DNA from: Planctomycetota bacterium
GTDB lineage: Bacteria; Planctomycetota; Planctomycetia; JALXBF01
DNA: 58,813 bases
Direction: 5' to 3'
Assembly (NCBI GenBank): GCA_026991575.1
Contig: JALXBF010000095.1
Location: 1-58,813 of the forward strand
Made by a program: the position numbers and the translations under genes. A model generated the notes under the pieces. It saw only the letters and a list, made by a program, of their open reading frames with translations. It was not told where the DNA came from and searched no databases. Positions 43,118 to 53,400 of the stretch are shown in pieces. Position 1 is the stretch's first letter. Every line of letters begins with the position of its first letter.

Positions 43118-43675
43118 ATGCGTTACCACTTGATTGACCGCATCTTGGAAATTGAGCCCGGTCGCCGGATCGTGGCGGTGAAGAACCTCTCAGCGGCGGA
43201 GGAATACCTGGCGGACCACTTCCCTGGCTTCCCGATCATGCCTGGCGTGTTGATGTTGGAGGCGATGACGCAGGCCGGCGCGTGGCTGATTCGGCTCAGC
43301 GAGGATTTTGCCCATTCGATCATCTTGCTAAAGTCGGCTCGTGGGGTAAGATATGCTAACTTCGTCGAGCCGGGCAAACAGCTGATCCTGGAAGCGGACG
43401 TGGTGCGTGAGGAGGGGCGCGAGACGAGTTTCAAGGCAAAAGGGACGATCGAAGGCAGCACCGTTGTCAGCGGCCGTCTGACGCTGGTGCGGTTCAATCT
43501 GGCGGAGCGGAACGCTGAGTTGGCGCGGCTGGACGCGAAGGTGATCCAGGCGTTGCGCCAGCTGCGGGCGACGCTCATGCGGGGCGCGAGGGTTGTGGGC
43601 GAGGCCAGTCCGGAGGAGGCGTCGCCGCTTCCGGGAGCGGGCGTTTCCGGCAGCGTGGAGGAACGGCGCGAATGA
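43118..43675 (+). CDS. fabZ: 3-hydroxyacyl-ACP dehydratase, FabZ type (first of two)
   Basis: Hot-dog-fold dehydratase, 185 aa, removing water from 3-hydroxyacyl-ACP to give the 2-enoyl chain. His34 in DHFPGFPIMPG and Glu48 in LMLEAMTQ are the catalytic pair. The C-terminus is about 35 residues longer than usual, ending in a Gly/Pro/Glu-rich tail. It is the first gene of the eight-gene plus-strand cluster and overlaps the ketoreductase start by four bases (ATGA). A second dehydratase with the same residue spacing lies at 45058. Whether this one serves general lipid synthesis or a special product depends on whether another fabZ exists in the genome. Confidence 0.93.
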   Translation: MRYHLIDRILEIEPGRRIVAVKNLSAAEEYLADHFPGFPIMPGVLMLEAMTQAGAWLIRLSEDFAHSIILLKSARGVRYANFVEPGKQLILEADVVREEGRETSFKAKGTIEGSTVVSGRLTLVRFNLAERNAELARLDAKVIQALRQLRATLMRGARVVGEASPEEASPLPGAGVSGSVEERRE

Positions 43676-44427
43676 CACTGGACGGCAAGATTACGTTGAT
43701 CACCGGAGGTAGTCGCGGTATTGGCCGCGCGATCGCGCTGGCGTTCGCGCGCCATGGCGCGCACGTGGCGATCGTGTACGCGCGCAACGCGGAGGCTGCC
43801 GGTGCGGTGGTCCGGGACATCGAGCAGCTGGGCCGGGAGGCCGTGGCCATTCAGGCCGACGTGCGCGACTTTGCCCAGTGCAAACGGGCATTCCAGGAGG
43901 TGCTCGACCGCTGGCAGCGGTTGGATGTGCTGGTCAACAACGCAGGCATCATCCGTGACAAGCTGTTCCTGCAGATGGATGAGGCAGACTGGCGCGATGT
44001 GATCGAGACAAACCTAATCGGCGCGTTCAACTTCTCCCGGCTGGCGGCCGAGGTGATGCTGAAACAGCGCAGTGGCCGGATCATCAACGTCTCGAGTGTG
44101 GCCGGTGCCTACGGCGGCAAGGGGCAGGTGAACTATGCGGCGAGCAAGGGCGGGTTGAACGCCTTCACCAGGGCCCTGGCCGCAGAACTGGCACCGCGTA
44201 GTATAACCGTGAACGCCATCGCTCCCGGTCTGATCGAAACGGAGATGAGCGAGGCGGTCCGGAATTTGCTGGGCAACGAGATTCGAAAGATTGTGCCGAT
44301 GAGGCGGGCGGGCAAGCCAGAAGAGGTAGCTGAGCTGGCTGTGTTTCTGGCCTCCCCGGCCGCCGACTACATTACCGGACAGGTATTCACGATAGACGGT
44401 GGCCTGAGCCTGGGCGGAATCCGTTAG
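43672..44427 (+). CDS. fabG: 3-oxoacyl-ACP reductase
   Basis: NADPH-dependent short-chain reductase, 251 aa, reducing 3-oxoacyl-ACP to 3-hydroxyacyl-ACP. The cofactor loop is TGGSRGIG (11-18) and NNAG is at 89-92. The catalytic set is Asn114, Ser142, Tyr155 and Lys159. The C-terminal SPAADYITGQVFTIDGGLSLGG is typical of FabG. It is coupled to the dehydratase upstream (ATGA) and followed after 152 bases by the acyl carrier protein. It would supply the ketoreduction step of the cluster. No enoyl reductase is found among its neighbours. Confidence 0.95.
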   Translation: MTLDGKITLITGGSRGIGRAIALAFARHGAHVAIVYARNAEAAGAVVRDIEQLGREAVAIQADVRDFAQCKRAFQEVLDRWQRLDVLVNNAGIIRDKLFLQMDEADWRDVIETNLIGAFNFSRLAAEVMLKQRSGRIINVSSVAGAYGGKGQVNYAASKGGLNAFTRALAAELAPRSITVNAIAPGLIETEMSEAVRNLLGNEIRKIVPMRRAGKPEEVAELAVFLASPAADYITGQVFTIDGGLSLGGIR

Positions 44428-44579
44428 CTGCCGGGGCGGAAGACTGGGGAGTGGTCCGCCTTGCAGCAAGCGGCTGGCTTGCGTACAACGGCGCAAGCCG
44501 AACCGGACGATGTCCGCCTTGGGCCAAGGTTGTGGTGTGTCTCGTTGGTCCTAGCCCTTGGTACTAGCGGAGGGTTGTG

Positions 44580-44972
44580 ATGCCGACGCGCGAAGAGATT
44601 TTCCAGAAGGTCCAGGAGACCCTGGTCGATGCGCTGGTGGTCGAGCCCGAGGAGGTTACTCGGGAAGCGACCCTGACGGGGGATCTTGGCGCCGAGTCGA
44701 TCGACTTCCTGGACATCGTCTTCCGCCTGGAAAAAGCGTTCAACATCAAGATCCCGCGCGGCGATCTGTTCCCGGAAGAGGTCCTCGATGACCCGAAGTA
44801 TGTGGCCGACGGCAAGCTGACGGCCGAGGGCGCCGAGGAGCTGAAGCGGCGGATGCCGTGGGCCGCGGACCACATCCGTGAAGGTCTGGAGATCCAGGAC
44901 CTGTTCACGGTGGACATGATCGTCAGCTTCATCGAAAGCAAGCTGAACCAGATGGCGGCCAGCCAGAACTGA
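44580..44972 (+). CDS. Acyl carrier protein with a long insertion
   Basis: Acyl carrier protein, 130 aa, versus about 75-85 for ordinary ACPs. The phosphopantetheine site is Ser40 in GDLGAESIDFLDIVFRLEKAF. Helix II and the following FNIKIPRGDLF are normal. An extra stretch of roughly 45 residues (about 66-105, rich in Glu, Asp, Lys and Ala) separates it from the last helix (FTVDMIVSFIESKL). The ATG at 44580 follows GGAGGG; an in-frame GTG lies one codon upstream. It probably carries the chain built by the cluster enzymes. The insertion may give specific docking to the KS pair or GH3 (inference). Confidence 0.9.
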   Translation: MPTREEIFQKVQETLVDALVVEPEEVTREATLTGDLGAESIDFLDIVFRLEKAFNIKIPRGDLFPEEVLDDPKYVADGKLTAEGAEELKRRMPWAADHIREGLEIQDLFTVDMIVSFIESKLNQMAASQN

Positions 44973-45057
44973 TCGTGGCGGCGAGCCGAGGCCCGGGGGC
45001 GAGCGGGGTCAGCCGGCCCCGCTTGCCGACCTGGTGTTGCGGCCGAGGAGACGCAGG

Positions 45058-45561
45058 ATGCGATGGATCTGGATCGACCGCATCGAAGAGTTCCGAAGTC
45101 GGGAGTACGCGCGGTCGGTAAAGAACGTGACGCTTGCCGAAGAGCACCTGCATGACCACTTTCCCGGCTACCCGGTCATGCCAACCTCGTTGATCGTGGA
45201 GGGCCTGGCCCAGACCGGTGGCTTGCTGGTCGGTGAGGCAAGCGGTTTCGGGGGACTGGTCGTGCTAGCCAAACTGTCGCGCGTCACGTTCCACGACTAC
45301 GCTCTGCCCGGCGACCAGATCACCTATGAGGTCAGGCTCAAGGAGCTGCGGCCCGAGGGGGCCGTCGTGGAAGGCACGGCCCGGGTGGGCGAAAAACTGC
45401 TTGCCGAAGCCGAGATCGTGTTCGCCCAGATGGATGCCCAGAAAGCGGCAGCCATCGTCGGCAACCGCTATTCGAACTTCCGCCAGGACATGCTCGACAT
45501 GATCCGGATCTCTCAGACCACAAGCACGGCAAGCAACTCTGAGCCGGCCGGTACCTCCTGA
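45058..45561 (+). CDS. 3-hydroxyacyl-ACP dehydratase-like protein (second)
   Basis: Second FabZ-like hot-dog protein, 167 aa. His34 (DHFPGYPVMPTSL) and Glu48 (IVEGLAQTGG) keep the catalytic pair, but the usual MPGVL has become MPTSL. The partner of the first dehydratase may differ in chain-length preference, or the two may form a heteromer, as described for the two dehydratases of aryl-polyene clusters. The start at 45058 has AGGAG upstream. It lies 85 bases after the acyl carrier protein and 116 before the first ketosynthase-like gene. Confidence 0.9.
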   Translation: MRWIWIDRIEEFRSREYARSVKNVTLAEEHLHDHFPGYPVMPTSLIVEGLAQTGGLLVGEASGFGGLVVLAKLSRVTFHDYALPGDQITYEVRLKELRPEGAVVEGTARVGEKLLAEAEIVFAQMDAQKAAAIVGNRYSNFRQDMLDMIRISQTTSTASNSEPAGTS

Positions 45562-45677
45562 GCTACGCTGGCACCACTGGCAGTGGCTGGCCGCAACCGC
45601 CAGAATATGGCCTCGGCAACAACACCGTCCCCGGCCCCTACAGCGACGATTCTCGGAGCTTCGAATCCAGTAGCTGC

Positions 45678-46982
45678 ATGAGTGACCAAGGCCGACGAGT
45701 GCTCATCACCGGTCTCGGGATCGTCTCCCCACTGGGTTGCGACCTGCAGAGCGTCTGGGAGCAACTCAGTGCCGGACGCTCCGGTATTCGCAGGATCGAG
45801 GCGTTCGATCCCGAGGGCCTGCCCAGTCAGATCGCTGGCGAGGTGATCGGCTACAGCGCGCGCAAGTACGTCGATCGGCAGCAGCGCAAGGCGTTGAAGG
45901 TCATGTGCCGCGACACGCTGCTGGCCATCGGCGCAGCACGCATGGCCCTGGAGGACGCCGGCCTACTGGAGTGGGCCGGCCTGGACCGGGAGCGTACGGG
46001 GGTGGTCTTTGGAGCCACGATGATGAGCTCCGAGTTGGAGGAGCTGGCCGAGGCGGCTGTCGCCTGCCACGACGAACAGGGGCAGTTCAGCTTGAAGTTG
46101 TGGGGTGAACGGTCCATTCCCACCATGCCCCCGCTCTGGATGTTGAAGTACCTGCCCAACATGCCGGCCTGTCATGTGTCCATCCTGTACGACCTTCAGG
46201 GGCCGAACAACACGATCACTATGGAAGAGGCGGCCAGCAATCTGGCCTTCGCCGAAGCGATGCGGATCATCCAGCGAGGCGATGCCGACGTGATGCTGGC
46301 CGGTGGCGCCGAGTCGAACGTTCATCCGCTACGCATGGCGCGGCTCTGCCTGCTGGGTGACATCAGCACGCGGAACGACGACCCAGCCGGTGCCTGCCGG
46401 CCGTTCGACCGGGACCATTGCGGGTTGGTCGCAGGCGAAGGCGCCGCCGTTGTCGTGTTGGAGTCCGAAGAGCATGCACGCCGCCGCGGGGCACGCGTGT
46501 ACGCGGAGCTGTCCGGCGAGGCGGCCACCTGCGTCGCCAATGCCGACCGTAGCTGGCAGGTAGCGGTTGAAGCGATTGCCGAAGTGATCCGCCGCGCACT
46601 GGCGTCAGCCGGAGCTGACCCGGAGGACATCGGCTTCTACAACGCGCATGGCAACGGGTCGGTGGTGGCCGATCGGGTTGAGGCGGCGGCGCTGCGCGAG
46701 GCACTCGGCTCGAAGGCCGGCGGCGTGCCCGTGGTGCCGTTTAAGAGCCACTTCGGGTCGGCCGGTACCGCCTGCGGCGCGCTGGAGTTCGTGGCCGGGG
46801 TGCTTGGCCTGCAGCACGGCCAGGCGCCACCGTCGGCTGCGTACCGCGAGCCGGATCCGGAGTGCGGACTGGACGTGGTGCACGGGGAACCACGGCCGCT
46901 CGCCGTACGCAGTTTCTTGTCGGTCAACTTCGATCGCGTCGGTCAGTGCGCAGCGCTGTTCGTGCGAGCCGTCGGCGATTGA
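45678..46982 (+). CDS. Ketosynthase-like protein lacking the active-site Cys (chain-length-factor-like)
   Basis: A 434-aa thiolase-fold protein of the FabF/KS family, aligning end to end with the next gene. The catalytic Cys position (TACAAS in the partner) is Glu184 here (MEEAAS, codon GAG at 46227). The second His (KSMMGH in the partner) is Ser361 (KSHFGS). His324 (NAHGNGS) and Lys356 remain. This pattern fits a non-condensing subunit like the chain-length factor of type II polyketide synthases, which usually has Gln at the Cys position. It probably pairs with the active KS 96 bases downstream and shapes chain length. Condensing activity is unlikely. Confidence 0.88.
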   Translation: MSDQGRRVLITGLGIVSPLGCDLQSVWEQLSAGRSGIRRIEAFDPEGLPSQIAGEVIGYSARKYVDRQQRKALKVMCRDTLLAIGAARMALEDAGLLEWAGLDRERTGVVFGATMMSSELEELAEAAVACHDEQGQFSLKLWGERSIPTMPPLWMLKYLPNMPACHVSILYDLQGPNNTITMEEAASNLAFAEAMRIIQRGDADVMLAGGAESNVHPLRMARLCLLGDISTRNDDPAGACRPFDRDHCGLVAGEGAAVVVLESEEHARRRGARVYAELSGEAATCVANADRSWQVAVEAIAEVIRRALASAGADPEDIGFYNAHGNGSVVADRVEAAALREALGSKAGGVPVVPFKSHFGSAGTACGALEFVAGVLGLQHGQAPPSAAYREPDPECGLDVVHGEPRPLAVRSFLSVNFDRVGQCAALFVRAVGD

Positions 46983-47078
46983 CCGCTACCCGCCCGCGGG
47001 CGCAACGGTGTCCGATCGGCCTGGAACCGGTTGATCCGTTCGGCTCACAGCACACCACAAAGCACCGTTTGGACAGCA

Positions 47079-48374
47079 ATGGCAGAAAGCAGACGGCGTG
47101 TTGTCGTAACCGGCATGGCCATGGTCACCCCGCTGGGCGGGGACCTGGAGCGTACGTGGCAGGCTGCCAAAGAAGGCCGTAGCGGGGTCGACTACATCAC
47201 CCGCTTCGATGCCAGTACGTTCCCGACACGCATCGCAGCGGAGGTGAAGAACTTCTCGCTGGCAAACTACATCCCCGACGGGCACGAGCGCTACGGATCT
47301 GCCGGACTGAACGCCCAGCTTGCCCTGGCCGCCACCGCCATGCTCTTGGAATCAGCCCGCCTGGACATCAGCCGGCTGGACCCGTACCGCGTCGGGGTCT
47401 ACCTGGGCGCCGGGGAAGGGCACCAGGATCTGGTGACGTTCATGCGGTTGCTACGGCGGGCGTATCAGGACGGCCGCATCGAGACGCCGGTGTTCAACGC
47501 CGGAGCAGTGGCGGAGCTGGATCCCGTGAACGAGCTGGAGCAAAGCCCAAACATGGCGGCCGTGCACGTTGCCGGCTTCGCCGGGGCTCGCGGACCGAAC
47601 TCCAACTGCCTGACCGCTTGCGCCGCATCGAACCAGGCAATCGGGGAGGCTGTGCAGCTGGTGCGCTCCGGAGTGGCTGACGTGATGCTCAGCGGCGGGG
47701 CGCACAGCATGATCCATCCGCTGGGCGTGACGGGCTTCAACCTCCTGACTGCGCTGAGCACACGGAATGATGAGCCGACGAAGGCATCGCGACCGTTCGA
47801 CCTGGGCCGTGACGGGTTCGTGCTCGGAGAAGGAGCCGGCATGGTGGTGCTGGAGGAGCTTGAGCACGCGCTGCGGCGGGGCGCGACGATCCACGGCGAA
47901 GTAATCGGGTACGGGCTCAGTGCCGATGCGTTCCGGTTGACCGATCCGCACGAGGACGGTCGGGGCGCGGTGCAAGCAATGGTCCACGCGCTCCGCGATG
48001 CGGGGCTGCGGCCCGAAGACATCGATTACATCAACGCTCACGGCACAAGCACGCGTGAAGGCGATGCCGTCGAGACCCTGGCAATTAAGAAAGTCTTCGG
48101 GGACTATGCCTACAAGGTCCCGGTTAGCTCGACCAAGAGCATGATGGGACATCTGATTGCGGCTGCCGGGGTGGTCGAGTTCATCCTGTGCTTGTTGGCC
48201 ATCCGCGACGGCATCATCCCGCCAACGATCAATCTGGAGACACCGGACCCGGAGTGCGATCTGGATTATGTGCCCAATGAGGCGCGCGCAGCAGACGTGC
48301 GCATCGCGCTGTCGAACAGCTTCGGGTTCGGTGGCCAGAACGCCTGCCTGATCGTGCGTCGATTTGACGGTTGA
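47079..48374 (+). CDS. Beta-ketoacyl-ACP synthase (FabF/KS type)
   Basis: Condensing enzyme, 431 aa, joining malonyl-ACP units to a growing acyl chain. The full catalytic set is present: Cys181 (LTACAAS), His321 (NAHGTST), Lys353 and His358 (STKSMMGH). FGFGGQNACLIV closes the sequence as in FabF. The ATG at 47079 gives the family N-terminus RRVVVTGMAMVTPLG. It follows the degenerate KS and overlaps the next gene by four bases. It is the probable active half of a KS/chain-length-factor-like pair. As a single general FabF it would not need that partner. Confidence 0.94.
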   Translation: MAESRRRVVVTGMAMVTPLGGDLERTWQAAKEGRSGVDYITRFDASTFPTRIAAEVKNFSLANYIPDGHERYGSAGLNAQLALAATAMLLESARLDISRLDPYRVGVYLGAGEGHQDLVTFMRLLRRAYQDGRIETPVFNAGAVAELDPVNELEQSPNMAAVHVAGFAGARGPNSNCLTACAASNQAIGEAVQLVRSGVADVMLSGGAHSMIHPLGVTGFNLLTALSTRNDEPTKASRPFDLGRDGFVLGEGAGMVVLEELEHALRRGATIHGEVIGYGLSADAFRLTDPHEDGRGAVQAMVHALRDAGLRPEDIDYINAHGTSTREGDAVETLAIKKVFGDYAYKVPVSSTKSMMGHLIAAAGVVEFILCLLAIRDGIIPPTINLETPDPECDLDYVPNEARAADVRIALSNSFGFGGQNACLIVRRFDG

Positions 48375-49444
48375 CCCATCACGGAACCCTGCCAGAGACG
48401 GTGACCTTGGGTACCGAACTCCTGGGCACAGTTTTTCTTATCGCACTAGCGGTAGCGATTGGCCTTGTCACACTGCTGGTCGTGGCCACGCTGATCATCT
48501 GCGTGGTGTACATGCCGCACATCGTCCGCGTCTTTGAAGAGGAGCCGCTGCTGCTGCCCAAGCGGCACGAGCCGGCCGAGGATGCCGAGGAGGTGCGGTT
48601 CCGCACCGCCGATGGCCTCTGGCTCCAGGGGGCCTGGCTACCCGCGCGTGGCGAGAGCGAGGGGGTGGTTGTCTTCTGCCCTGGGTTCAAGATGGATCGC
48701 TGGACGGCGCTGGAGTACCTGGACGACGTGCGCGATCTGGGGCTGGATCTATTCACGTACGAATTCCGCAACCAGGGTGAGAGCGATGCTGAGGAAGGCT
48801 ATCGGCCGATGCAGTGGGTGACCACACGCGAGGTCCGCGACGTCGAGGCAGCCCTGGCCCACGTGCGCGCACGCCAGCAGGACCGTGGCCTGCCGGAGCG
48901 AATCGTCCTGTTCGGCATCAGTCGAGGGGGAGGGGCGGCGCTGGTTGCGGCCAGCCGCGACCGCGACGTACTCGGCTTGATCACCGATGGGGCCTTTCCC
49001 ACCCACGGCATGCAACTGGCATTCATGCTGCGTTGGGTGGGAATCTACGCCAATCTCCCGTTCATCTACAAGCGGATCCCTCTGTGGTACTACAGCTTCC
49101 TCTGCTTCCTGACCCGCTGCATCGTTGCCTGGCGGAACCGGTGCTGGTTACCGTCCATTGAGCGGGCTGCCCGGCGTTTGGCCGTCTCCGGCTGGCTGAT
49201 GATCCACGGCGCCAAGGACAGCTACATCCCTCCCAGGATTGCCCGTCAGCTCTACGAACTGGCCCGATGCCCAAAAGAGCTCTGGCTCGTGCCCGGCGCG
49301 CGCCACAATCAGTGCCACCGGACTGAACCGGAAGAATACAGCCGGCGCGTGCGAGCCTTCCTGCTGGAAACGCTGCAGCTGGGTCGATTAACATACTGTG
49401 ACGAGAGGGAAAATGCAGAAAGTGGGTCGACTGAGGCCCGCTAG
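48371..49444 (+). CDS. Membrane-anchored alpha/beta hydrolase
   Basis: A 357-aa alpha/beta-hydrolase with an N-terminal membrane helix (LLGTVFLIALAVAIGLVTLL, about 17-48). The triad is visible: Ser184 in FGISRGGG, Asp283 in HGAKDSYIP and His312 in GARHNQ. It may act as a thioesterase or acyltransferase releasing the chain from the carrier protein at the membrane, or as an unrelated esterase. The start TTG at 48371 overlaps the KS stop (TTGA); a GTG at 48401 is an alternative. Position between KS and GH3 supports a role in product release. Confidence 0.83.
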   Translation: MTHHGTLPETVTLGTELLGTVFLIALAVAIGLVTLLVVATLIICVVYMPHIVRVFEEEPLLLPKRHEPAEDAEEVRFRTADGLWLQGAWLPARGESEGVVVFCPGFKMDRWTALEYLDDVRDLGLDLFTYEFRNQGESDAEEGYRPMQWVTTREVRDVEAALAHVRARQQDRGLPERIVLFGISRGGGAALVAASRDRDVLGLITDGAFPTHGMQLAFMLRWVGIYANLPFIYKRIPLWYYSFLCFLTRCIVAWRNRCWLPSIERAARRLAVSGWLMIHGAKDSYIPPRIARQLYELARCPKELWLVPGARHNQCHRTEPEEYSRRVRAFLLETLQLGRLTYCDERENAESGSTEAR

Positions 49445-49492: not shown

Positions 49493-51238
49493 ATGAAGCT
49501 CACCACTCCCCTAGTCTGGATCCTGCGCAAGACCATCGGCCGTGTTGTCATCTGGAAAGCACGTCGCGCAGTCGCCGCCTTCAAACAGGCGGCAGCCCAC
49601 TGCCGCGAAACTCAGCAGCGGGTTGTGCTCGAGAAGATCGCACGAAATGCAGAAAGCGACTTCGGCCAGGCGCACCACTTCCAGTCGATTGCCAGCATCG
49701 AAGACTTCCGTCGTGCCGTGCCGATCACGACGTACGACTACTACGAACCGTACATCGAACGCCTCAAACGCGGTGAAGTGCGCGCCATGTTCGGCAGCGG
49801 CCAAAAGCTGCTGATGTTCGCACTCACCAGCGGTACCACCGCCCGACAGAAGTACATTCCGATCACCGACGTCGCGCTGAAAGAGTACAAGCGCGGCTGG
49901 ATGCTCTGGGGCCTGCACGTCTTCGACCAGCATCGAACCATCTTCTCGGCCGACTCCCAAACCCTGCAGCTGGCCAGCGATTGGGAGGAGTTCCGTACCG
50001 AAGGAGGGATTCCGTGCGGCTCGGTCAGCGGCTTGACCGCCGCCATGCACGGCTGGATTATCCGTCGCCGCTACTGCTTGCCGCCGATCATCGTCAAGAT
50101 CAAAGACAGCCTCGCCCGCTACTACACCGCTCTCAGGCTCGCGCTGCCTGCGCCGATCGCGATGGCCGTCGCACCGAATCCCAGTACGCTGATCACGCTG
50201 GCGCGGCTCGGGGACGAATACAAGGAGTCACTGCTCCGCGACCTGGCCGACGGCACACTCAGCTCCCGGTTCGACATCCCAGGCCACGTGCGCGACGCGC
50301 TACGGCCACGGATCCGTAAGCGATGGCGCAGCTTCGTGCGAGACATGGAACGGATCGTCGAGCGGGAAGGGCACCTGTACCCAAAGCACTACTGGCCACG
50401 ACTCACCCTGCTGGCCAACTGGACCGGCGGCACCGTTCGCGCATACCTGCGTGACTACCCGGAATACTTCGGCGATGTCCCGGTTCGTGACATCGGGCTG
50501 ATCGCCAGCGAAGGCCGCATGACCGTGCCAGTGGAAGACGGCACCCCTGCCGGCGTGTTGGATATCGTGCACGGGTTCTTTGAGTTTATCCCGGAGGAGG
50601 AGATCGAATCAGCGAACCCAACAGTATTGCTGGCGCACGAGCTGCAAGAAGGCAAGAACTACTACATCCTCATCACCACCTCGAGCGGACTGTACCGATA
50701 CGACATTCGCGATGTGGTCCGCTGCGTCGGCTGGTACCACAACACGCCGGTGTTGGAGTTCCTGCATAAGGGGGCTCACATCGCGAACATGACCGGCGAA
50801 AAGCTGACCGAGCATCAGGTCGTGACGGCTGTCGAGCAAGCGGTCAGCCGGCTCAGCCTGCGATGTCGAACCTACACGCTAGCCCCCGTCTGGGACCGAG
50901 TCCCCTACTACGCGCTGCTTGTCGAGCACCGTGACCTGAGCGACCATGCAGCTGCCGCGAAGCTGGCGGCCGAGGTCGACCAGGCTCTGCGGAGGCTGAA
51001 TGCCGAGTACGACTACAAGCGGGAGAGCTTGCGGTTGGGGCCCGTGCGTGTGCGCCTGATCCCGAACGGATCCTGGCAACGGCTTCGGGATCGAAAGCTG
51101 TCCGAAAGAGGCGGAACGCTCGAGCAGTACAAACATCCTTGCATCGCGGCCACCCTGGACTTTGCCAACCAGTTCCGCGCTATTGCCGAAGTAGCCCCCG
51201 TCGGTTCCCCATTGACCGAACGGGCTGCCACCGGGTAG
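49493..51238 (+). CDS. GH3-family acyl-amide (acyl-amino acid) synthetase
   Basis: A 581-aa protein of the GH3 family, part of the ANL adenylating superfamily. Plant members adenylate acyl acids such as jasmonate or auxin and form amides with amino acids. Visible motifs are FALTSGTTARQKYIP (ATP loop, 110-123), LIASEGRM (336-343), YRYDIRDVVRC (401-411) and GEKLTEHQV (435-443). All regions expected for adenylation are present. As the last gene of the acyl-chain cluster it could activate the finished acid and couple it to an amine. The acyl and amine substrates are unknown, and many bacterial GH3 proteins remain uncharacterised. Confidence 0.88.
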   Translation: MKLTTPLVWILRKTIGRVVIWKARRAVAAFKQAAAHCRETQQRVVLEKIARNAESDFGQAHHFQSIASIEDFRRAVPITTYDYYEPYIERLKRGEVRAMFGSGQKLLMFALTSGTTARQKYIPITDVALKEYKRGWMLWGLHVFDQHRTIFSADSQTLQLASDWEEFRTEGGIPCGSVSGLTAAMHGWIIRRRYCLPPIIVKIKDSLARYYTALRLALPAPIAMAVAPNPSTLITLARLGDEYKESLLRDLADGTLSSRFDIPGHVRDALRPRIRKRWRSFVRDMERIVEREGHLYPKHYWPRLTLLANWTGGTVRAYLRDYPEYFGDVPVRDIGLIASEGRMTVPVEDGTPAGVLDIVHGFFEFIPEEEIESANPTVLLAHELQEGKNYYILITTSSGLYRYDIRDVVRCVGWYHNTPVLEFLHKGAHIANMTGEKLTEHQVVTAVEQAVSRLSLRCRTYTLAPVWDRVPYYALLVEHRDLSDHAAAAKLAAEVDQALRRLNAEYDYKRESLRLGPVRVRLIPNGSWQRLRDRKLSERGGTLEQYKHPCIAATLDFANQFRAIAEVAPVGSPLTERAATG

Positions 51239-51326: not shown

Positions 51327-52454
51327 TCAGGGGCGAGCAAAGTGGAGTGCGATGAGCGCGTAGCCGGTACAAAGATTCGGATCCCCCTCGTACCAGCGTT
51401 TCGCTGTGTTTACCCAGGAGCCGTCCGCGCGCTGTCGGCGGGCGAGCGCGTCGACAAGCTCAACACGCCACGGGTGCTTGTTGCCTGCAGCGTCCACGAA
51501 CGGATCCTCGCCCAGGGCGTAGAGCGCCTTGGCCATGGTCTGGTAGTAGTAGTACAAGCCCTGTAGCTCCTTACCTTTTGGCATGCCCGGATTCCGTTCG
51601 GTGGTGTAGTTCTTGCGAATCCAGTCCACCGCGGCACGGATGCGCGGATCGTTGCGATCCACGCCGCAGTAGATCATGCTCTTCAGACCGGCGTATGTCA
51701 TCGAGCCGTAGGAGCGCCAGCCACTGGACTCGGTCTTGCCTGCCTTACTCTCGCCGCCGAGCACCGGCGTGTAGATGAAGCCCCCGTCGTTGACCTTGGC
51801 TGCGAACGGCAGCGTGTTGTACTCGCTGGCCAGGTTCTGGCACCGCGACAGGAAAATCAGTGCCTTGCGAAAAGCCGGATCGTCGCTGGGAAGGCCTGTG
51901 GTGTGGAGGGCCTCGATGGCTAGCTGTGTGTTGGAGAGATCCGGCCGCTTCTTCGAATCATAGCCAATGCCCCCGTAGTACGGATGGGACGGATCGTACC
52001 CTTCGCCCTCGTCGGCCTGCAGCTCTTTCAGGAATTGCTGGGCGGCGCGGATGAGGCTGTCGTAGCGGCCATCCTTGTTGGCTTCATGGAAGGCCATCAG
52101 GGCTACGGACGTCGTGTAGGCCGCGTGGCGCTTCGGGTAGATGCCACCATCGGGTTGGACGTACTGCTCAAGGTAGCCCAGCGCCTTGCGCACCCAGGGT
52201 TCATCCGGCGAAACGCGGCCGGTCTTCAGCACGCCAGTTACCACCACAGCCGTCACGCCGGGCTCCAGATGTGGGCTCCAGGCTCCGTTGGCCGACTGCG
52301 AAGTGCGCAGAAAATGCAGGCCTCTGGAAACGAGCCGGTCGTAGAGCACCGGATCAGGGTCTGTCTCGCCGGCAAACAACCGGACGTAGTTCAGTAGGCT
52401 TGCCGTTGCGGCAGCGGACGCAATCGTGAAGAACTGTCGCCGAGATACGTGCAT
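51327..52454 (-). CDS. TAT-exported prenyltransferase/squalene-cyclase-repeat protein
   Basis: A 375-aa protein with a twin-arginine signal (MHVSRRQFFTIASAAATASL). Alpha/alpha-toroid repeats as in prenyltransferases and squalene cyclases follow, with QW-like units LHFLRTSQSANGAWSP, YLEQYVQPDGGIYP and LARRQRADGSWVN. The DXDD motif of cyclases is not seen, so cyclase activity is doubtful; planctomycetes have many such exported relatives of unknown role. The start at 52454 follows GGAGGAGG. It is 22 bases downstream of groES on the same strand and probably co-transcribed. Confidence 0.85.
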   Translation of the reverse strand: MHVSRRQFFTIASAAATASLLNYVRLFAGETDPDPVLYDRLVSRGLHFLRTSQSANGAWSPHLEPGVTAVVVTGVLKTGRVSPDEPWVRKALGYLEQYVQPDGGIYPKRHAAYTTSVALMAFHEANKDGRYDSLIRAAQQFLKELQADEGEGYDPSHPYYGGIGYDSKKRPDLSNTQLAIEALHTTGLPSDDPAFRKALIFLSRCQNLASEYNTLPFAAKVNDGGFIYTPVLGGESKAGKTESSGWRSYGSMTYAGLKSMIYCGVDRNDPRIRAAVDWIRKNYTTERNPGMPKGKELQGLYYYYQTMAKALYALGEDPFVDAAGNKHPWRVELVDALARRQRADGSWVNTAKRWYEGDPNLCTGYALIALHFARP

Positions 52455-52476
52455 GCAGCCTCCTCCAAAGCGTAGA

Positions 52477-52764
52477 TTACTCAATCCGCGCCAGGATCTC
52501 CTCTTCACGTAGGATCCTCAACTTCTCCCCGTCCAACTCGATTTCCTGGCCGGCCCACCGGTTGAACAGCACACGGTCCCCCTCGTGCACTTCCAGCGGC
52601 ACGATTTTGCCATTTGGCAACCGGTGTCCGTCGCCGACGCTGAGCACTTTACCTTCGACGGTTTCTTCGCGTACCGTCTCTGGCAGGGCGATGCCGCTAG
52701 CGGTTTGAGCGGGCCGCTCGACTTCGCGGACGATCACGTTATCGCCAAGTGGCACAATTTTCAT
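52477..52764 (-). CDS. groES: Co-chaperonin GroES
   Basis: Ten-kilodalton co-chaperonin, 95 aa, capping GroEL during protein folding. The sequence covers the whole family: MKIVPLGDNVIVREVE, the mobile loop around QTASGIALPETV, GKVLSVGDG, and EGDRVLFNRWAGQEIELDGE near the end. No groEL follows; the next gene encodes a TAT-exported repeat protein 22 bases away. A CIRCE operator was not found upstream. Planctomycetes often have several groES copies, some apart from groEL, so this may be a secondary copy. Confidence 0.94.
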   Translation of the reverse strand: MKIVPLGDNVIVREVERPAQTASGIALPETVREETVEGKVLSVGDGHRLPNGKIVPLEVHEGDRVLFNRWAGQEIELDGEKLRILREEEILARIE

Positions 52765-53400
52765 CGCTGTGCAGGCTCCAGCTACGTGTGCCGTCAGCGC
52801 GACGTATTCAACTTCAATCCTAGGAGCCTGCGCCAGCGGCAACCAGCCGCCCCATGGATCCCTGTCCCGGCGAGACCCATCCCGATCGGTCCACGGCAGA
52901 TGCCACGCAAATTCGATTCCTTCGACGAATCTGTTGCTGTGCGGGCGCGCCCGCTGGAATGGCAAACCGAGCGATCCGGCGCAAGGTGCTTTCGTGCTTG
53001 TGTCCCGCTCGCGCCGCCGACGTGCCTGCACCGGCTTTGCCGCAGTGCCAAGGCAGCTGGCCTCCTGGGGGCTGTAATTGCGGTTAGTGGTTTGCGACGG
53101 CGTTGTCGCTGTTGCCAGGGCCCCGGGTCAGAGTGGTTTCTCCACCGGGAACGCAGAGGCACGCTTTGGTACACGAGCTTGCCGGAACGGGGGCCGGAGA
53201 GGCTCTTCACCTCCCCTGGACACGAGATTGTTCAGCTGGCACCGGCCGCCCCGAAAGCCCGTTCCTCCCCGGCTCGGTCGTGCCGACGAGTGCATCGCGG
53301 CGGTAGCGCGGAGCTGCACGCGGCACATGCCGACCCACATGAGCCCGCGCGTGCCGTGCGAAAGATCCGGATATTACACCGCACGTAAGGGGACGGGCGC

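Follow-up and report, generated by a model that had tools for sequence, protein, structure and literature searches.

A planctomycete ketosynthase homologue with glutamate in place of the catalytic cysteine: a candidate non-condensing partner in a conserved operon

What role may be played by a ketosynthase whose nucleophilic cysteine has given way to an acid, and which is encoded directly beside an intact ketosynthase? The question is raised by a gene at positions 45678..46982 (plus strand) of the window, the 58,813-nucleotide stretch of planctomycete DNA analysed here. Its product, a FabF-type ketosynthase homologue referred to below as KSE, is presumed to be a partner subunit resembling the chain-length factors (CLFs) of type II polyketide synthases (PKSs), and the intact ketosynthase encoded next to it is referred to as KSC.

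The active site of KSE and its relatives

The KSE gene is an open frame of 434 codons, and its product contains both the N- and C-terminal ketoacyl-synt domains of Pfam but scores under the cut-off of the fabF model TIGR03150 (318 bits against 493.75). When KSE was aligned with KSC, the FabF proteins of E. coli and T. roseum and the KSalpha of type II PKSs, Glu184 (GAG codon at 46227..46229, plus strand) fell exactly on the nucleophilic Cys, His324 on the first His, Lys356 on the Lys and Ser361 on the second His, so that the residues and numbering given in an earlier note on this DNA are all correct. The resulting set, E-H-K-S, departs from the Cys-His-His site of FabF condensing enzymes. An intact frame and the conservation of the gene rule out both a pseudogene and a sequencing error, and the alignment supports the assignment of KSE as a non-condensing FabF-type paralogue with Glu in place of the catalytic Cys. 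Another Cys was considered as an alternative nucleophile. This candidate, Cys165, was not taken as a replacement, being located 19 residues ahead of the elbow and shared with one of the two reference FabFs. The 132 KSE relatives have Cys (123) or Ser (nine) at this residue, and KSC mostly has Gly or Ala there.

The earlier note took KSE for an odd single protein, a view that does not hold, since KSE belongs to a family found in all 39 genomes of its class that were searched and the Glu/Asp substitution had been tabulated for R. baltica in 2009. Outside the class Planctomycetia the distribution is patchy, with eight of 94 genomes matching KSE at a strict threshold in a sample of 99 genomes across the whole phylum. 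The relatives were drawn from the 39 same-class genomes and from planctomycete records (80 loci) that take in Isosphaeraceae, Gemmataceae, Schlesneria, a Rhodopirellula sp. and a few Phycisphaerae. At the Cys position the 132 relatives, the window protein included, carry Glu (73), Asp (57), Ser (1) or Cys (1), and neither Gln nor Asn occurs in any of them. When the column was left out of tree building, at least 17 changes at the position were required; at most two of these changes are due to the Ser and the Cys, and the remainder are swaps between Glu and Asp. Because an acid persists in 130 of 132 relatives through so many changes, without Gln or Asn and beside two flanking positions (182 and 183) that each accommodate 9-10 different residues, the negative charge at this site is under selection, and a carboxylate is actively maintained.

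The other catalytic positions are conserved to different degrees. In a set of 53 KSE proteins 47 retain the first His and 42 the Lys, and the second His has been replaced by Asn in 41 and is still His in only six; it is missing from the window protein and from about 90% of the family. Combinations EHKN (52) and DHKN (31) together account for 83 of the 132 relatives. The Lys is replaced by Leu in 13 relatives, and the first His is missing from several copies that lie in operons (e.g. EVKS, ETKQ). Dozens of residues are invariant throughout the family.

The origin of the family was addressed with a tree of 72 rows, several reference rows of which are long branches. All 31 KSE rows with an acid or Ser grouped in a single clade (SH-aLRT 97). 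The same region of the tree also holds planctomycete ketosynthases with Cys, among them this genome's second paralogue (G000:C58, locus L092), together with the L168 protein described below. The CLFs formed a clade of their own in the best tree, apart from KSE, and forcing the two into one clade was 20 log-likelihood units worse (p-AU 0.092). A common origin of KSE and CLFs is thus disfavoured, though not rejected by the AU test, and KSE appears to have arisen from planctomycete FabF-like enzymes. The L168 gene (L168:6821-8296), from an unclassified bacterial MAG, encodes a KSE-like protein that keeps the active-site Cys (TTGCSSS), has Asp at the second His and lies upstream of a KSC orthologue; it is a possible evolutionary intermediate.

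The adjoining ketosynthase and the operon

KSC (47079..48374, plus strand) is an intact condensing ketosynthase with the set C-H-K-H, scoring over the cut-off of the fabF model (504 bits against 493.75). It starts 96 nt downstream of KSE in the same frame, with one TGA and 32 codons in between. Like a CLF, KSE adjoins an intact ketosynthase. A KSC orthologue at least 55% identical is present in 39 of 39 class genomes, and the partner ketosynthase carries C-H-K-H in 38 of 38 cases in one set and Cys in 59 of 59 in another. For 81 of the 132 KSE relatives a ketosynthase is encoded on the same strand at a distance of no more than 0.8 kb, and in 70 of those 81 it is a KSC orthologue (at least 52% identical) located directly downstream. 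Counting against a role as partner, the remaining 51 relatives have no ketosynthase gene nearby, and in families f3, f6 and f7 KSC stands in its operon or locus without an adjoining KSE, which is encoded elsewhere in the genome. No shared theme was found among the neighbourhoods of lone KSE genes that were scanned. In Schlesneria-like genomes KSE comes after an ACP gene and a housekeeping-type FabF. This arrangement, with KSE directly downstream of the two, is seen at L137:5155-8284 and also at L107, L140, L143, L148 and L162, in Schlesneria-like and related planctomycetes.

Translation through the stop codon between KSE and KSC yields a naturally linked pair, which was modelled with AlphaFold using 15 read-through homologues. 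The model has a mean pLDDT of 88.6 and a pTM of 0.91, and only the linker and the first residues are of very low confidence; these values are not proof of heterodimer specificity because homologous ketosynthases homodimerise. Foldseek comparison with the PDB returned mostly single FabF chains; the KS-CLF didomain of PfaC (6riw) matched the linked model over its full length (TM 0.74/0.72, 979 columns), and the model thereby supports a resemblance in shape between KSE plus KSC and a KS-CLF pair. The earlier note's proposal of a heterodimer with the ketosynthase at 47079 agrees with this prediction, with the conserved adjacency and with the finding of both families in every one of the 39 class genomes, and it remains the likely arrangement. 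A separate observation is a nearly invariant E-x-E-Q-E motif in about 90 KSC orthologues, in the loop before the active-site strand and aligned to KSE 155-159, which is missing from FabF, KSalpha and KSE. A charge pair at the interface between this motif and Lys/Arg157 of KSE was considered as evidence of heterodimers and set aside, as related ketosynthases with Cys carry Lys there too and the feature is not specific to KSE.

The two genes belong to a block on one strand in the order FabZ1, FabG, ACP, FabZ2, KSE, KSC, alpha/beta hydrolase and GH3. FabZ1 (43118..43675, plus strand), a hotdog protein resembling 3-hydroxyacyl-ACP dehydratases, overlaps by 4 nt with FabG (43672..44427, plus strand), a 3-oxoacyl-ACP reductase over the TIGR01830 cut-off. 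The ACP (44577..44972, plus strand) has an extended C-terminal half and a phosphopantetheine site, ESID, that is invariant at 69 of 69 loci, and the second FabZ-like dehydratase, FabZ2 (45034..45561, plus strand), keeps its catalytic Glu at 69 of 69 loci and its His at 61 of 69. Downstream of KSC lie a conserved operon member, an alpha/beta hydrolase with a hydrophobic N-terminus (48371..49444, plus strand), and an acyl-adenylating enzyme of the GH3 family (49493..51238, plus strand), a distant homologue of OlsH. A ketosynthase pair, an ACP, a ketoreductase and dehydratases are therefore encoded together at 43118-48374, the composition of a reducing type II PKS cluster. Across the class Planctomycetia, and partly in Phycisphaerae, the same gene order is found again, with FabG absent from the block in some families. 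At L160, L172 and L173 (labelled Phycisphaerales, Sedimentisphaerales and Phycisphaerae) the segment ACP-FabZ2-KSE-KSC is retained, preceded by FabZ1 at L160 and L172.

Several further observations concern the individual members and their surroundings. The catalytic Glu of FabZ1 is kept in 46 of 64 relatives and is replaced by Gln in 17, which suggests that in some families one of the two dehydratases may lack activity. The GH3 protein was not identified with OlsH itself, a lyso-ornithine lipid synthetase, as it scores 108 bits against an NCBIfam cut-off of 620 and the true OlsH occupies a separate locus in the genomes that have one; nor was the hydrolase detectably OlsI. A need to bypass FabH was rejected, since FabH is present in this genome. 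On the opposite strand beside the operon, positions 51327-52508 encode a protein with a domain like the C-terminal part of squalene-hopene cyclase (Pfam PF13243), and the product of 52477-53031 (minus strand) has a C-terminal half that by eye resembles a GroES-type co-chaperonin.

Proposed role of KSE and competing readings

It is plausible, and on balance probable, that KSE supplies the non-condensing half of a KS-CLF-like heterodimer within a reducing acyl synthase operon. The argument rests on the acid in 130 of 132 relatives, the Cys that is always present in the partner ketosynthase, the conserved adjacency, the occurrence of both families in all 39 class genomes, the confident linked model and an operon like those of reducing PKSs. 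KSE would then be a FabF homologue that lost its nucleophilic Cys and has a carboxylate fixed at that position, and it would pair with the adjoining active ketosynthase at 47079 as the model predicts. The Cys of KSC would carry out the condensations and KSE would shape the shared acyl tunnel, in which case it may also control chain length. With two FabZ-like dehydratases, FabG and a dedicated ACP, the pair would presumably make an acyl chain by a reducing route, of fatty-acid or polyene type, and the GH3 enzyme and the alpha/beta hydrolase would probably release this chain or attach it to an acceptor. Such a KSE would not be a canonical CLF, given that it lacks Gln, that its other substitutions differ and that it apparently originated from planctomycete FabF-like enzymes. 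An acid-His-Lys-Asn set that is conserved beyond what a pure scaffold would need counts against the role of partner.

The same set is the main ground for a rather unlikely alternative, that KSE is an enzyme of a new type that uses its carboxylate, together with His, Lys and Asn, on an ACP-bound substrate, alone or within the heterodimer, through chemistry such as proton transfer, aldol reaction or cyclisation, or hydrolysis. The predominance of EHKN and DHKN, a replacement of the second His that is not random but mostly Asn, the persistence of the carboxylate and the many genomes in which KSE has no neighbouring ketosynthase would all fit such an activity. However, the other positions drift, as the 13 proteins with Leu and the EVKS and ETKQ copies illustrate, the window protein itself has Ser instead of Asn, and a precedent for such chemistry at that position of the fold was not found. 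That the family represents a new catalytic type within the ketosynthase fold, with carboxylate-His-Lys-Asn replacing the thiol both inside the heterodimer and in lone copies, is slightly less probable still.

Decarboxylation of malonyl-ACP, which the earlier note had offered as a second possibility, would make KSE a KSQ-type enzyme that supplies acetyl-ACP starters. The loss of Cys with retention of His and Lys is indeed the theme of KSQ, and a pairing of Asn and His is reminiscent of the residues that serve decarboxylation in FabH-type enzymes. KSQ enzymes, however, carry Gln and both His residues, whereas KSE has Glu184 and Ser361, its family never has Gln and has largely lost the second His, and with FabH in the genome the supply of starters does not need KSE; this function is accordingly improbable. 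It is harder still to credit that KSE is by inheritance a true member of the type II PKS CLF family and its Glu a mere variant of Gln. Among the reference CLFs, L183 does have Asp at the Cys position, and the AU test does not reject a joint clade, but the best tree places the KSE rows apart from CLFs and near planctomycete ketosynthases with Cys such as G000:C58, and at the two His positions, occupied by His and Asn/Ser in KSE, CLFs have Asp/Glu and mostly Arg. Decay into a functionless duplicate, which the loss of the catalytic Cys and the second His might suggest, is contradicted by the presence of the family throughout the class, its invariant residues, its conserved carboxylate and its conserved operon position, and can be dismissed.

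If the reading of KSE and KSC as a KS-CLF-like synthase is true, the class produces a dedicated acyl chain, and the operon provides a short gene list for expression. The carboxylate of KSE is also a natural experiment on the use that non-condensing ketosynthase subunits make of their dead active site, a question that is posed by CLFs as well.

Comparison with known systems

The substitution of Asp/Glu has been known in kind since 2009; new here are the conservation of a carboxylate across the family, the operon found across the class and the model of a partner subunit. Two FabF paralogues of R. baltica, NP_866153 with Glu163 and NP_865682 with Asp163, were listed by Rattray et al. (2009, PMC2649909) in the context of ladderanes, with no partner or function assigned to either, and no further paper naming them was found in the literature searched. 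Like KSE they are planctomycete proteins with Glu/Asp at the Cys position and the first His kept, and NP_866153 has E-H-K-N, the commonest KSE set. A 2023 catalogue mentions KS-CLF pairs in Planctomycetes without detail (PMC10132072).

The KSalpha-CLF pairs of type II PKSs (actinorhodin type; L176-L178, L183) resemble KSE and KSC in being encoded by adjoining genes, one with Cys and one without. They differ in gene order, which is KS then CLF and is reversed here, in their separate clades in the best tree, and in the residues of the CLF, which at the Cys position is typically Gln rather than Glu or Asp, apart from the substitutions at the two His positions already described. The claim in the earlier note that Glu is unusual beside CLFs agrees with the five reference CLFs of the alignment (three Gln, one Asp and one Lys). 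PfaC likewise joins an active KS and a KS-like partner in one pseudo-dimer, both halves of which the linked model fits; PfaC, however, is part of a single PUFA synthase polypeptide, whereas two genes are found here, with the CLF-like gene first, and the identity is 14%.

For the downstream genes, the closest parallel is the ornithine lipid pathway OlsH/OlsI of Singulisphaera, in which OlsH is a GH3 enzyme (PMC12493201). In both cases a GH3 enzyme and an alpha/beta hydrolase are encoded together in planctomycetes; however, the GH3 protein of the operon has only about 21-30% identity to OlsH-family proteins, and the hydrolase of the operon is not clearly similar to any gene located beside OlsH. 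As a whole, the operon resembles the reducing type II PKS sets of the ishigamide and aryl polyene type, in which an ACP, a ketoreductase, two dehydratases and a ketosynthase pair occur together. The same set is found in a reducing type II PKS-like cluster on a Streptomyces plasmid (L179), whose second ketosynthase also lacks the Cys, having Ala instead. From these sets the planctomycete operon is distinguished by the carboxylate in KSE, the extended ACP, and the GH3 enzyme and hydrolase that follow the ketosynthase pair.
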